Assembly (NCBI RefSeq): GCF_900148835.1
Contig: NZ_FRYK01000002.1
Coordinates: 62,001 to 126,000, forward strand
Reading direction: 5' to 3'
Source of the DNA: Flavobacterium cucumis
Lineage (GTDB): Bacteria > Bacteroidota > Bacteroidia > Flavobacteriales > Flavobacteriaceae
Length of the DNA stretch: 64,000 nucleotides
Under the pieces are notes generated by a model. That model had not been told where the DNA came from. It saw only the letters and a program-made list of their open reading frames with translations, and made no database searches. This document shows positions 43,827 to 47,999 of the stretch, one piece after another (the first letter of the stretch is position 1; each line of letters opens with the position of its first letter). The position numbers were made by a program, and so were the translations under genes.

Positions 43827-43899
43827 GACTTGGTAGCTCAGCTGGTAGAGCACATCACTTTTAATGATGGGGTCCTGGGTTCGAATCCCAGCCAGGTCA
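43827..43899 (+). tRNA. tRNA-Lys (UUU), copy 1
   Basis: A 73-nt cloverleaf: acceptor arms GACTTGG and CCAGGTC with discriminator A, D-loop with AGCTCAGCTGGTAGAGC, anticodon loop with TTT, and T-arm GGGTTCGAATCCC. CCA is not encoded. Identical to copy 2. Confidence 0.97.
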
Positions 43900-43927
43900 C
43901 TACAAAATCTTATTTTTTGAATGCACC

Positions 43928-44000
43928 GACTTGGTAGCTCAGCTGGTAGAGCACATCACTTTTAATGATGGGGTCCTGGGTTCGAATCCCAGCCAGGTCA
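43928..44000 (+). tRNA. tRNA-Lys (UUU), copy 2
   Basis: Identical over all 73 nt to the copy at 43827, starting 101 bases later; 28 bases lie between the two. It is probably in the same transcript. Confidence 0.97.
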
Positions 44001-44045
44001 CAAAAATTATTCAAGACGTTGCAATGCAACGTCTTTGTTATTTAA

Positions 44046-44128
44046 GGCCAAGTGGAGAAACGGTAGACTCGCCATCTTGAGGGGGTGGTGCTCGTAAGGG
44101 CGTGAGGGTTCAAATCCCTCCTTGGTCA
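44046..44128 (+). tRNA. tRNA-Leu (GAG)
   Basis: An 83-nt class II tRNA: acceptor arms GGCCAAG and CTTGGTC, anticodon stem CCATC/GGTGG with loop TTGAGGG (anticodon GAG), a long variable arm (about TGCTCGTAAGGGCG) and T-arm AGGGTTCAAATCCCT. CCA is not encoded. Confidence 0.95.
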
Positions 44129-44213
44129 CAAAAAATCTATTTTTAAACTCCATCCTTTTTTGTCTAACTAAAACAAAAAAATCATTAAACATTTTTTAAT
44201 GTAAAAATTTTTT

Positions 44214-44244
44214 TGTTCGATTTTTTTATTACTTTTGTTAAACA
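44214..44244 (+). promoter_or_regulatory. Putative CarH/LitR-type operator of the MerR regulator's own gene
   Basis: TGTTCGA (44214-44220, two mismatches from TGTTTAA), 17 nt, TTAAACA (44238-44244). The right half is also part of a perfect palindrome TTTTGTTAAACAAAA (44233-44247). The -7 element TACTTTTG (44230-44237) directly abuts the right half. A further ATTAAACA lies at 44184-44191. Confidence 0.55.
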
Positions 44245-44258
44245 AAAATAAATGAAAG

Positions 44259-45158
44259 ATGAACAATGTTAAAAATGTTTTCAGTATCAAAGATTTAGAA
44301 AATCTTTCAGGAATAAAAGCACATACTATTCGTATCTGGGAAAAAAGATATGATGTTTTGGAACCAATGCGATCAGATACTAATATCCGTTCATACGACA
44401 TCAAAAACTTACAGAAACTTTTAAACATCGTATTACTTCATAATTACGGCTATAAGATTTCAAAAATTTCTCAATTAACACAAACCGAGTTAAATAAGTT
44501 AGTCAATGAAATTATATCTGAAAAAAGTGCTAAAAATCACGCAATAAGCACTTTTAAAATGGCAATGATGAATTTTGATCAAGCCCTTTTCTTTAACACT
44601 TATAATAATCTTCTAAGTGAAAAATCATTTAAAGAAGTCTTTTACACAGTATTCATACCTTTAATGCAAGAAATTGGTTTTCTATGGCAAACAGATACTA
44701 TTTCTCCAGCTCACGAACATTTTATTTCATACTTAATCAAACAAAAATTATTAATTAATACGGAAAAAGTTCAAATTTTAGAACCAACAAAAAGCGATAA
44801 AGTCTTTGTACTTTTTTTACCATCTAATGAAATCCACGAATTAGGATTAATGTATTTGAATTATGAAATTTTACTCAATGGATATCAAAGTATTTATTTA
44901 GGAGAGAGCGTACCTGTAGACAGTTTAATCGACTTAAAAAACTATTTTGAAAAAATAACATTTGTTAGTTATTTTACTGTCGAACCAAAACAAGACGAAA
45001 TAAATGACTACATAAAAGAGTTTCATGAAAAAATAATAAAAGACTCCCAACACGAAGCTTTTTTGATAGGCAGAATGACCGAATATATTGACCAAAAATC
45101 CTTAAACGAAAATGTTAAAGTCTTTAAAAGTATTGAAGAATTAACATATATGCTTTAA
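44259..45158 (+). CDS. CarH/LitR-like MerR-family regulator with cobalamin-binding domain
   Basis: A 299-residue regulator. The MerR winged-helix domain (about 7-75) has FSIKDLENLSGIKAHTIRIW and EKRYDVLEP. A four-helix cap and Rossmann-type B12-binding domain follow. Residues matching Thermus CarH are Trp143, Glu153 and His154 (same 10-residue spacing as Trp131-Glu141-His142) and the lower-ligand His193 in EIHELG. The residue after Trp143 is Gln, where CarH has His132 that binds cobalt after light exposure. CarH represses carotenoid genes in the dark using adenosylcobalamin. It lies 54 bases upstream of crtI and its own promoter holds the shared inverted repeat, so autoregulation is likely. 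Confidence 0.9.
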   Translation: MNNVKNVFSIKDLENLSGIKAHTIRIWEKRYDVLEPMRSDTNIRSYDIKNLQKLLNIVLLHNYGYKISKISQLTQTELNKLVNEIISEKSAKNHAISTFKMAMMNFDQALFFNTYNNLLSEKSFKEVFYTVFIPLMQEIGFLWQTDTISPAHEHFISYLIKQKLLINTEKVQILEPTKSDKVFVLFLPSNEIHELGLMYLNYEILLNGYQSIYLGESVPVDSLIDLKNYFEKITFVSYFTVEPKQDEINDYIKEFHEKIIKDSQHEAFLIGRMTEYIDQKSLNENVKVFKSIEELTYML

Positions 45159-45169
45159 AATATTTTTTT

Positions 45170-45200
45170 TGTTTAATTTTTTTTATATATTTGTTAAACA
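45170..45200 (+). promoter_or_regulatory. Putative CarH/LitR-type operator of the crt operon
   Basis: Perfect TGTTTAA (45170-45176), 17 nt, TTAAACA (45194-45200), extending to TTGTTTAA/TTAAACAA. The -7 element TATATTTG (45186-45193) directly abuts the right half. The crtI GTG is 12 bases downstream. Confidence 0.65.
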
Positions 45201-45212
45201 AAAATAAGAATC

Positions 45213-46673
45213 GTGTCAAAAAAAATAGCAATTATAGGCTCAGGATTTTCCTCACTAGCTGCATCCTGTTATCTTGCAAAAGCGGGTAACGAGGTAACCA
45301 TTTATGAAAAAAACGAAACAATAGGCGGCAGAGCGCGTCAACTTAAGAAAGAGGGATTTGTTTTTGACATTGGTCCAACATGGTATTGGATGCCAGATGT
45401 TTTTGAAAGGTTTTTTGGGGATTTTAACAAAAAACCTTCTGATTATTTTGAATTAATCAAATTATCACCTGCATATCAAGTTTATTTTAATACTTTAGAT
45501 TTTGTAACGATTGCCGACAACTTACCCCAAATAATAACAACTTTTGAATCTATAGAAAAAGGAAGTGGTAAACAATTGGAACAATTCATGTCTGAAGCAA
45601 AAAGCAATTATGATATAGCTATTAAAGATTTAGTTTACAGACCAGGTGAATCTCCTTTAGAGTTAATAACTTTTGAAACGGCTCAAAAAGTAAATCAGTT
45701 TTTCAGTAATATATCGAAAGATGTAAGAAAACGATTCAAAAATAAAAAATTAGTTCAAATCTTAGAATTTCCTGTTTTATTTCTTGGTGCTAAACCAAGT
45801 GATACACCTTCTTTTTATAGTTTCATGAACTTTGCCGATTTTGGTTTGGGAACATGGCATCCAAAAAATGGCATGTATTCTGTCGTACTAGCGATGGAAA
45901 AATTAGCAAAAGAACTAGGCGTAAAAATAGAAACAAATGCTAATGTAGAAAAAATTGACATTACAAACGGAAAAGCAACAGGTATTCTTGTAAACAATAA
46001 AATCACGTTGGCAGATATTGTCTTAAGTGGAGCAGATTACCATCATTCTGAATCATTATTAGATGAAAATTATAGACAATATTCTGAAAACTATTGGTCT
46101 AAAAAAACTTTTGCACCATCATCGCTTTTATTTTATGTAGGGTTTGATAAAAAATTGAATAACGTAGAACATCACTCATTATTCTTTGATGTTGATTTTG
46201 ATATTCATGCTGAGGCTATTTATGACAACCCAAAGTGGCCAAAAGATCCATTATTTTATGCAAGTTTTCCATCAAAGACAGACGCAAATGCAGCTCCAGA
46301 AGGAAAAGAAGCTGGAATTTTCTTGATTCCTATAGCACCTGGCATTGAAGACACTACTGCTTTAAGAGAAGAATATTTTGAAAAAATAATTACTAGATTT
46401 GAAAAACTTACGAATCAGGAAGTCAAAAAAAGTATTATCTTTAAAGAATCATTTTGTGTTAACGATTTTATTAAAGAATACAATTCTTATAAAGGCAATG
46501 CTTATGGCATGGCAAACACACTATTACAAACTGCATTTTTAAGACCAAAATTGAAAAGTAAAAAAGTTAAAAACTTATATTTCACAGGTCAATTAACGGT
46601 GCCAGGCCCAGGTGTTCCCCCTGCTCTAATTTCGGGTAAATTAGTTTCAGATTTAATTGAAAAGTATAAATAG
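45213..46673 (+). CDS. crtI: Phytoene desaturase
   Basis: A 486-residue FAD enzyme that turns phytoene into lycopene. The N-terminal dinucleotide-binding motif is IIGSGFSSLAASCYLAKAG, followed by EKNETIGGRARQ and DIGPTWYWMPDVF. The C-terminal family signature is NLYFTGQLTVPGPGVPPALI. Start is GTG at 45213; there is no upstream alternative because of the promoter. crtB follows after 7 bases. Transcription probably depends on the operator at 45170-45200. Confidence 0.96.
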   Translation: MSKKIAIIGSGFSSLAASCYLAKAGNEVTIYEKNETIGGRARQLKKEGFVFDIGPTWYWMPDVFERFFGDFNKKPSDYFELIKLSPAYQVYFNTLDFVTIADNLPQIITTFESIEKGSGKQLEQFMSEAKSNYDIAIKDLVYRPGESPLELITFETAQKVNQFFSNISKDVRKRFKNKKLVQILEFPVLFLGAKPSDTPSFYSFMNFADFGLGTWHPKNGMYSVVLAMEKLAKELGVKIETNANVEKIDITNGKATGILVNNKITLADIVLSGADYHHSESLLDENYRQYSENYWSKKTFAPSSLLFYVGFDKKLNNVEHHSLFFDVDFDIHAEAIYDNPKWPKDPLFYASFPSKTDANAAPEGKEAGIFLIPIAPGIEDTTALREEYFEKIITRFEKLTNQEVKKSIIFKESFCVNDFIKEYNSYKGNAYGMANTLLQTAFLRPKLKSKKVKNLYFTGQLTVPGPGVPPALISGKLVSDLIEKYK

Positions 46674-46680
46674 TATAAAC

Positions 46681-47520
46681 ATGAAATCGATTTTTGACCA
46701 CGTATCTTTTGATTGTAGCGTTAAAGTTACAAAAGCATACAGCACTTCCTTTTCTTCTGCTGTAAAAATGTTGGCGCCAAGTATCCGACAAGATATCTAT
46801 AACATTTATGGATTTGTTCGTTTTGCCGATGAAATTGTTGATACTTTTCACGATTATGATAAAGAAGCCTTATTCAATCAATTCGAAAATGATTTGAAGC
46901 TAGCCATTTCACAAAAGATTAGCCTAAATCCAATTTTAAATTCATTTCAAAATACTGTTCATAAATACGATATTCCTAATGAGCTAATAGAAGCTTTTAT
47001 GAAAAGTATGAAATTAGATTTGTTTAAAACTAAATACACAACGGTAGAGGAATATAATGAATACATTTACGGTTCAGCAGATGTTGTTGGATTGATGTGT
47101 TTGAAAGTATTTGTAAACGGAGACACTGATAAATACGAAGAACTAAAACATGCTGCAATGCGATTAGGATCTGCTTTCCAAAAAGTAAATTTCCTGAGAG
47201 ACTTAAAAGCAGATTTTGAAGATTTAAGTAGAACCTATTTTCCAAATACCGATCTTACAAAATTAGATGAAACAAGCAAGCACCAAATTATTGCTGAAAT
47301 TGAAGAGGATTTTAATGCTGGCTTTTTAGGAATTCAAAAATTACCGTTAGAGGCTAAGTTTGGAGTATATACAGCGTATATTTATTATAAAAAATTATTA
47401 AGCAAATTAAAAAAAACACCTTCTTTAGAAATAAAAAATACTCGAATAAGAGTTCCAGATTATCAAAAAGTTGGGCTTTTAGCCAAATGTTATCTTAATT
47501 ACAGATTAAACATTTTATAA
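46681..47520 (+). CDS. crtB: Phytoene synthase
   Basis: A 279-residue squalene/phytoene synthase-type enzyme that joins two geranylgeranyl diphosphates to phytoene, the first carotenoid step. The start is at 46681 (MKSIFDHVSFDCS); the frame is open eight codons further up but this lies inside crtI. The two Asp-rich magnesium motifs are DEIVD (after YGFVRFA) and the DLKADFED region. KAYSTSFSSA near the N-terminus is also conserved. Second gene of the crt operon. Confidence 0.95.
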   Translation: MKSIFDHVSFDCSVKVTKAYSTSFSSAVKMLAPSIRQDIYNIYGFVRFADEIVDTFHDYDKEALFNQFENDLKLAISQKISLNPILNSFQNTVHKYDIPNELIEAFMKSMKLDLFKTKYTTVEEYNEYIYGSADVVGLMCLKVFVNGDTDKYEELKHAAMRLGSAFQKVNFLRDLKADFEDLSRTYFPNTDLTKLDETSKHQIIAEIEEDFNAGFLGIQKLPLEAKFGVYTAYIYYKKLLSKLKKTPSLEIKNTRIRVPDYQKVGLLAKCYLNYRLNIL

Positions 47521-47555: not shown

Positions 47556-47999
47556 ATGTGGATTCACTTTTTAGTTTTCATTGTTACCTTCTGTTTTATG
47601 GAATTCATGGCATGGTTTAGTCATAAATATATCATGCATGGTTTCTTATGGAGTTTACATGCAGATCATCATAAAAAAGATCATGATTCATGGTTTGAAC
47701 GTAACGATGCTTTTTTTATTTTTTATGCAGTGGTAAGCATTGGCTGTTTCTTATTATGGCAAAAAAACATTTTAGAGATTGGCCTAGCCATAGGTCTAGG
47801 AATTTTCGCTTATGGTTTGGCTTATTTTCTTGTACACGACATATTCATACATCAACGGTTTAAATTGTTTAGAAATGCGAACAACAGATACGCAAAAGCA
47901 GTAAGAAGAGCCCACAAAATGCATCACAAGCACATAGGAAAAGAAGATGGAGAATGTTTTGGAATGCTAATAGTTCCTCTAAAATATTTCAAAAAATAA
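47556..47999 (+). CDS. crtZ: Beta-carotene hydroxylase
   Basis: A 147-residue membrane di-iron enzyme that hydroxylates beta-carotene to zeaxanthin. The four His motifs are present: HKYIMHG, HADHHKKDH, HDIFIHQR and RRAHKMHHKH. About four membrane spans. It lies 35 bases after crtB. A lycopene cyclase gene, needed to make its substrate, is not found here; the operon ends with a terminator. Confidence 0.94.
   Translation: MWIHFLVFIVTFCFMEFMAWFSHKYIMHGFLWSLHADHHKKDHDSWFERNDAFFIFYAVVSIGCFLLWQKNILEIGLAIGLGIFAYGLAYFLVHDIFIHQRFKLFRNANNRYAKAVRRAHKMHHKHIGKEDGECFGMLIVPLKYFKK

Follow-up and report, generated by a model that had tools for sequence, protein, structure and literature searches.

CarH and its paralogue CarA share, as described in PMC9304148, the recognition-helix motif RxWERRY; the same source gives CarH operators as tandem 11-bp direct repeats of the form nnnnTnnACAn and places an Arg-Asp salt bridge at the CarH dimer interface. 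The need for bis-His ligation of cobalt in the release of CarH from DNA is disputed, since reports on the H132A variant of Thermus thermophilus CarH disagree: according to one group, and against an earlier report, it is mostly still tetrameric in light (PMC10442372). Other B12 photoreceptors carry a different residue at the His132 place. CtMerR, with Arg, is reported to dissociate from tetramers into monomers on illumination without forming a bis-His state, the Glu of its EH pair turning toward cobalt (PMC11796333). The photocobilins SasPcob (Gln) and AbDPcob (Tyr) are described as losing the adenosyl group in light to leave hydroxo- or water-ligated cobalamin, and as keeping their oligomer state unchanged in light when biliverdin is absent (PMC11796333, PMC10979010). 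All three respond to light, which shows that His132, although present in many CarH proteins, is missing from some functional B12 photoreceptors. For crtI-crtB-crtZ, a cluster that includes a MerR gene has been described (PMC5887021), and earlier flavobacterial work, in the accounts we draw on, treats the MerR gene of the carotenoid cluster as a putative regulator and gives no sensed signal. Our literature searches, which combined CarH, LitR or MerR with Flavobacteria or Bacteroidetes, carotenoids, cobalamin and light, found no study of this clade's sensing.

We analysed a 64,000-nucleotide stretch of the Flavobacterium cucumis genome (the window), in which a CarH-like merR gene lies immediately upstream of crtI-crtB-crtZ (Table 1). 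From its N-terminus, the 299-residue product comprises a MerR DNA-binding domain, a helical B12 cap and a divergent Rossmann B12-binding part. Its recognition helix reads RIWEKRY, which fits RxWERRY except for Lys in place of the second Arg. The closest PDB entries by sequence are Thermus CarH/LitR (E 3e-11), and the CarH equivalog NF052513 is the top NCBIfam model for the protein despite a score of 64.9 bits against a cut-off of 400. The Pfam model of the Rossmann B12 domain, PF02310, gave no match in the regulator at E values up to 1. This model matches 21 of 38 diverse relatives, the window's protein not among them, and the Rossmann part is therefore better regarded as a diverged B12 domain than as a different one. 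A loss of B12 binding deduced from the missing PF02310 match was considered, and is weakened by those 21 relatives and by the first rank of CarH in the fold search described below. As far as sequence can tell, the regulator would work like CarH; it is not filed here as a CarH equivalog, because several defining features of CarH that we looked for are absent from it.

Table 1. Features of the merR-crtI-crtB-crtZ locus, with positions counted from the first nucleotide of the window.
Feature	Position	Strand	Remarks
Two tandem tRNA-Lys(TTT) genes, then tRNA-Leu(GAG)	43827-44129		just upstream of merR
Proposed merR operator, TTTGTTCGA-N13-TTTGTTAAAC	44212..44243	+	half-sites 22 bp apart
-7 element of merR, TACTTTTG	44230..44237	+	overlapped by proposed operator
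merR, CarH-like MerR regulator, 299 aa	44259..45158	+	ATG start; ORF listing, Pfam, AF2 model
MerR HTH domain, aa 8-75	44280..44483	+	Pfam MerR_1, E 3.1e-13
Helical B12 cap, aa 98-164	44550..44750	+	Pfam B12-binding_2, E 1.2e-8
W143 (= CarH W131, adenosyl-stacking) and Q144 (= CarH H132, upper cobalt ligand after light)	44685..44690	+	alignments
E153-H154 (= CarH E141-H142)	44715..44720	+	Wx9EH motif together with W143; alignments
H193 (= CarH H177, lower cobalt ligand)	44835..44837	+	within E-I-H-E-L-G; alignments, hhalign
Proposed crtI operator, TTTGTTTAA-N13-TTTGTTAAAC	45168..45199	+	half-sites 22 bp apart
-7 element of crtI, TATATTTG	45186..45193	+	overlapped by proposed operator
crtI, phytoene desaturase	45213..46673	+	GTG start; above NCBIfam NF058655 cut-off
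crtB, phytoene/squalene synthase family	46657..47520	+	TTG start as listed, first ATG 46681; family matches, all below equivalog cut-offs
crtZ-like carotene hydroxylase	47556..47999	+	named from sequence reading and cluster position; no NCBIfam match

An earlier note on this DNA had matched four pocket residues of the regulator to Thermus CarH and placed Gln where CarH has His132. We took T. thermophilus CarH as the reference (L087, annotated carH, with phytoene synthase and photolyase genes nearby), and the L-INS-i alignment returned exactly this pairing: W131 with W143, H132 with Q144, E141 with E153, H142 with H154, and H177 with H193. A profile of 49 close sequences aligned to CarH by hhalign falls in the identical register (prob. 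97.8, E 6.9e-13). Our close set consists of the window and 80 loci, the best 80 of 323 relatives, at 68-81% identity and from records mostly titled Flavobacterium or Flavobacteriaceae. Each of W143, Q144, E153, H154 and H193 is present in 81/81 of these sequences, as are intact Wx9EH and ExHxxG motifs, so the Gln at 144 is real and fixed in the close family; the 81/81 by itself says little, as 105 of the 299 columns are at least 98.5% conserved in that set. Some Flavobacterium-like loci (L041, L047, L059, L064, L072, L074 and L076) stand under the titles Sphingobacterium, Bifidobacterium, Chitinophaga or Rhizobium, and these are probably wrong record titles or mixed bins.

Around these residues the cobalamin site is partly remodelled. 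The lower-ligand motif D/ExHx2G/P is present as E191-I-H193-E-L-G196, and the remainder of the B12 motif, SxT/V...GG, is replaced by S237-Y-F239 and I270-G271. S237 falls on the CarH Ser in hhalign and one column off in MAFFT; the first Gly of GG and the T/V are gone, and the second Gly is kept in the window's protein and at least 90% conserved in the 38 diverse homologues. A total loss of the tail-binding GG motif is ruled out by this near-fixed second Gly together with the hhalign position of S237. CarH positions 176 and 201, which we take to be the Arg-Asp pair of the dimer interface, align with I192 and S217, and the pair is thus not kept. Elsewhere, CarH Gly160 corresponds to Gln172 and Gly174 to Asn190, and Gly192 is kept as Gly208. 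Of the SignatureFinder light signature (GxxW, EH, GxxH, GxxxP), the protein contains GFLW, EH and GESVP, with NEIH replacing GxxH, so that the set is incomplete. The first position of GxxH is Asn in 80/80 close loci (best 80 of 323); outside the family, the 34 homologues that keep the pocket have Gly there in 19 cases and Asn in 9. The published signature search would probably miss the flavobacterial proteins, because they carry NxxH and the window's protein has no Pfam B12 match to PF02310.

The AlphaFold2 model of the regulator, built from 49 sequences, has a mean pLDDT of 88.8 and a pTM of 0.82, and its top Foldseek match is CarH (E 4e-13). In VIA-align, most CarH cobalamin domains superimpose with Z scores of 16.5-18 (2.4-2.8 A, about 195 residues); the scores are 14.6 for light-exposed full-length CarH and 14.4 for LitR (3whp). 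CtMerR and SasPcob, at 16.6-17.1, are tied with CarH, and MetH (14-15), AerR (13.6) and AppA (13.4) score lower. The predicted overall fold is thus of the CarH type and fits B12 photoreceptors best, and fold alone shows no function.

The reading in the earlier note also depends on the lack of another His on the upper face of the cobalamin, and the homologues were compared for conserved His residues. In the 38 diverse homologues H193 is the sole invariant His and H154 the only further one present in at least 90%, and no other cap His is therefore conserved at the phylum level. H94 and H152 are common His positions in the close set that are mostly replaced outside the family. H152, which sits beside E153, could act as a substitute upper ligand, swinging to cobalt after photolysis and producing a bis-His state by another route. 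Its presence as His in 79/81 close sequences (best 80 of 323 plus the window) would suit such a role, as would the light-driven movement of the neighbouring Glu toward cobalt reported for CtMerR (PMC11796333). H152 aligns with CarH E140, however, and among the 34 intact homologues outside the family the column holds Gln in 23 and His in 9, which makes this route very unlikely indeed.

The conservation of the pocket was then assessed across the phylum. A profile search of 296 Bacteroidota genomes found a match in 85 of them, giving 100 rows, and the 70 strongest of the 100, window included, were aligned with the 30 weakest left out. Trp, Glu, His and the lower His are all kept in 62 of the 69 sampled homologues, and a His after the Trp occurs in 0/69, the 7 without an intact pocket included. 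In the 62 intact proteins the residue following the Trp (W+1) is Gln in 37, Leu in 7 and Arg in 3; Gly, Ile, Met, Val and Thr are found twice each, and Ser, Ala, Asp, Asn and Lys once each. Within the window's own family it is Gln in 28 of 29. That Gln144 is a rare or private change is ruled out by the 81/81 in the close set and the absence of His in the 69 sampled homologues.

For an extra comparison we added seven plasmid homologues from elsewhere, two of them from Bacteroidota (Persicobacter). Among those with an intact pocket, W+1 is His in two Thermus proteins, Ala in those of Rhizobium (L090) and Comamonas (L091), and Arg in that of Caballeronia (L093). Because these last three lack the His yet have an intact pocket, its absence is not confined to Bacteroidota. 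Of the two Persicobacter proteins, the one with His at W+1 has lost three of the four pocket residues and the one with Gly has lost two; one Bacteroidota protein beyond the 69 thus has a His after the Trp, without the pocket.

A quick tree of 77 rows, built without the W+1 column, requires a minimum of 22 changes at this position among the 70 rows whose pocket is intact, five of which are outgroup rows. The pocket residues, counted on all 77 rows, show no change at E153, 3 at W143, and 5 each at H154 and H193. What the tree firmly shows is that the residues on the adenosyl side and the lower ligand are conserved, with the bis-His position free to vary. The window falls within a group of 68 rows, all from Bacteroidota, and four further Bacteroidota rows (L159 and L161-L163, with Asn, Arg, Arg and Lys at W+1) lie outside it, beside the Rhizobium row. 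The deep order of the tree is unsure, since no branch separates the outgroup from the other rows and several are long.

Carotenoid genes accompany the regulator well beyond the window. The crtI product scores 732 bits against a cut-off of 640 for NF058655, the model of the bifunctional phytoene desaturase/3,4-desaturase CrtID, so that the product may be 3,4-desaturated and not lycopene alone. By tblastn, crt genes are present in the fetched flanks of 78 of the 80 close loci (best 80 of 323), and near 46 of the 62 intact sampled homologues versus 1 of the 7 without an intact pocket (one-sided Fisher p 0.0034, uncorrected for kinship or flank length and resting on 7 pocket-less loci). Flanks reached up to 6 kb for the close loci and about 1.5 to 4 kb for the sample, and because of this difference the absence of crt genes is weak evidence.

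Several homologues (L141, L145, L154 and L158, also L157 and L160) have lost at least one pocket residue, for example with Tyr in place of the Trp, or with Ala, Ser or Gln where the lower His should be. On the tree, L141, L145, L154 and L158 cluster, and several of these proteins share a genome with a second, intact copy. Judged by their sequences, they look like B12-independent paralogues, parallel to Myxococcus CarA. The window's regulator could itself be of this kind, its cobalamin domain persisting as a relic or as a dimer or partner-binding platform, and the divergent Rossmann part without a PF02310 match, IG for GG, the lost Arg-Asp pair and the existence of these pocket-less relatives are all compatible with this. 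We give the idea a small chance of being correct: CarA lacks the Trp of the Wx9EH motif that is complete throughout the close set, the four pocket residues persist in most of the phylum-wide sample, and crt linkage follows the intact pocket, a contrast that rests on 7 loci.

Upstream of merR and crtI we found a paired element. The pattern TTTGTT-N16-TTTGTTNAAC has two matches in the 2.85-Mb genome, one before merR and one before crtI; neither the other strand nor the reversed control gives any across the whole genome. A related pattern with one mismatch allowed has three matches in the window where 0.23 are expected, a number reached by 2 of 100 shuffles; the third match lies on the other strand and overlaps the crtI site. 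From start to start the half-sites are 22 bp apart, equal to two 11-bp CarH repeat steps. On the minus strand, TnnACA can be read in both half-sites before crtI and in one of the two before merR, with no clear middle repeat. The Bacteroidota -7 consensus is given in PMC6847099 as TANNTTTG/TAHHTTTG, and both copies place the end of the upstream TTTG 14 nt ahead of TAnnTTTG, a distance shorter than the -33/-7 numbering implies. An ordinary promoter as the sole explanation of the element is ruled out by this short spacing, by the extension past the -7 element and by the uniqueness in the genome.

The element recurs in close relatives. In the best 80 of 323 relatives, the pair is present at 22 bp in 27/80 crtI-side and 18/80 merR-side regions and at 21 bp in 15/80 and 2/80; no region has it at 20 bp, and a 23-bp spacing is seen in 0 crtI-side regions and 1 merR-side region. 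These counts are not independent because the loci are close kin and the pattern was first defined on the window. Shuffled versions of these 80 loci (30 shuffles per set) gave at most 1 pair and none at 22 bp, and about half of the 80 crtI-side regions have no pair at 21-22 bp. In the wider sample, allowing 21 or 22 bp, the pair occurs within 103 bp after merR in 13 of 69 loci, 12 of these in the family, and before merR in 0/69. Nearly all sampled loci outside the family lack the pair, and the element is therefore a feature of the flavobacterial branch rather than a general one. Upstream of one homologue (L122), a possible inverted form, TTTTGTTCT...AGAACAAAA, stands instead of the direct pair.

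We propose that the paired element is a candidate operator of merR and crtI. The regulator could instead activate the crt genes as classical MerR proteins do, a possibility suggested by its MerR-family DNA-binding domain. We hold this quite improbable, as the element covers the -7 element and extends downstream of it, instead of being limited to the spacer, and the characterised CarH proteins are, to our knowledge, repressors. New here are the adjacency of the regulator gene to crtI-crtB-crtZ and the paired TTTGTT element over the -7 elements of merR and crtI.

PduO-type adenosyltransferase makes AdoCbl, the adenosylcobalamin that such a regulator would bind. The enzyme is present in the window's genome, where no BtuR-type match was found and where PF02310 has four matches, three of them above the cut-off and none of them the 299-residue regulator. 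The PduO-type enzyme occurs in 62/62 genomes holding the 70 aligned homologues versus 159/234 others, a contrast confounded by kinship. Its direction is as expected and it says little, because 221 of the 296 sampled genomes have the gene; of the 75 without it, 17 among the 20 listed belong to one family (f17), which makes the contrast weak evidence.

The pocket residues, the predicted fold, the gene order, the paired element unique in the genome and the missing upper His in the sampled homologues form the basis of the reading that we find somewhat probable: a repressor of merR itself and of crtI-crtB-crtZ that depends on AdoCbl, is released by light and works without bis-His ligation. AdoCbl binding, the oligomer, the light response and the direction of regulation are all inferred for the window's regulator, as is the role of the paired element as its operator. 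In the dark, the protein would bind AdoCbl with H193 below the cobalt and W143 and E153 holding the adenosyl group; in this loaded form it would oligomerise and, on the paired operator, cover the -7 elements of merR and crtI. Upon illumination the Co-C bond would be cleaved and the adenosyl group would depart. Since Q144 cannot ligate cobalt, the light state would be a water- or hydroxide-ligated cobalamin and not a bis-His one. The loss of adenosyl contacts alone would then weaken the oligomer and free both promoters, so that carotenoids would be made in light.

Without an upper His to lock the open form after photolysis, the protein might alternatively be an AdoCbl-dependent but light-blind B12 sensor that represses the crt genes when AdoCbl is plentiful. 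The largely tetrameric state of illuminated H132A CarH in one study (PMC10442372) and the unchanged oligomers, without biliverdin, of SasPcob, the one characterised protein with Gln at this place, and of AbDPcob (PMC11796333, PMC10979010) fit such a sensor. CtMerR nevertheless becomes monomeric in light with Arg at this place (PMC11796333), and SasPcob, with Gln, is reported both to lose its adenosyl group in light and, with bilin bound, to pass from dimer to monomer (PMC11796333, PMC10979010). The adenosine-stacking Trp, moreover, is nearly fixed, and a carotenoid operon suits light better than B12 supply. We therefore consider a light-blind sensor unlikely.

The earlier note had offered two consequences of the Gln, namely break-up in light without a stable adduct or a switch from photosensor to B12 sensor. 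The first may well occur, as the AdoCbl-pocket residues are kept and CtMerR, SasPcob and AbDPcob provide precedents; the Gln itself, however, is not a special feature, because W+1 is variable across the sampled phylum. The second finds no support here: the position varies, with His in 0/69 sampled homologues, and the carotenoid operon, the proposed operator and the retained Trp and Glu point to ordinary light control. On this sequence evidence, the regulator probably senses light without a His lock.

If the same holds for its relatives, a large Bacteroidota branch of CarH-type regulators would lack any bis-His lock, and much of the phylum would control carotenoids by light through the loss of adenosyl contacts alone, the flavobacterial part with a two-site operator spaced 22 bp apart over -7 elements; we rate this broader possibility slightly below even. 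On this view, bis-His ligation as seen in Thermus would be an addition of one lineage, and B12 light sensing would at its core do without it. Our findings also suggest that pigment in a major group of aquatic bacteria is controlled by light through B12. They provide a natural test set for the disputed role of the bis-His state, consisting of 62 sampled homologues that have an intact pocket without the His, 46 of them beside carotenoid genes, together with a candidate operator.

Set against the described systems, the window's protein resembles Thermus CarH/LitR in architecture (PDB 5c8a, 5c8d-f, 3whp), with a MerR domain, a four-helix B12 cap and a Rossmann domain, and it shares with Thermus CarH the W, E and H residues and the lower His and the adjacent carotenoid genes; its proposed operators may likewise be built on 11-bp steps with TnnACA. 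It differs in having Gln for His132, Asn for Gly174, Ile for Arg176, Ser for Asp201 and IG for GG, in an identity of about 19% over the domain, and in half-sites that lie two repeat steps, or 22 bp, apart. Myxococcus CarA, a B12-independent CarH paralogue, is likewise a MerR carotenoid repressor with a cobalamin-type domain; CarA is reported to be without the Wx9EH Trp and the residues that flank it (PMC9304148), whereas in the window's protein W143 is present and the motif is intact. CtMerR of Chloracidobacterium thermophilum (PDB 8jbs, 8jbt) comes from another phylum, shows 11-13% identity in the fold matches and has Arg rather than Gln, yet it is a B12 photoreceptor of the MerR type whose upper ligand position likewise has no His. 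The photocobilin SasPcob (PDB 8j2w, 8j2x) is no MerR regulator, contains a biliverdin domain and needs bound bilin for its dimer-to-monomer change in light; like the window's protein, it carries Gln at the His132 place, and its light state has water or hydroxide on the cobalt.
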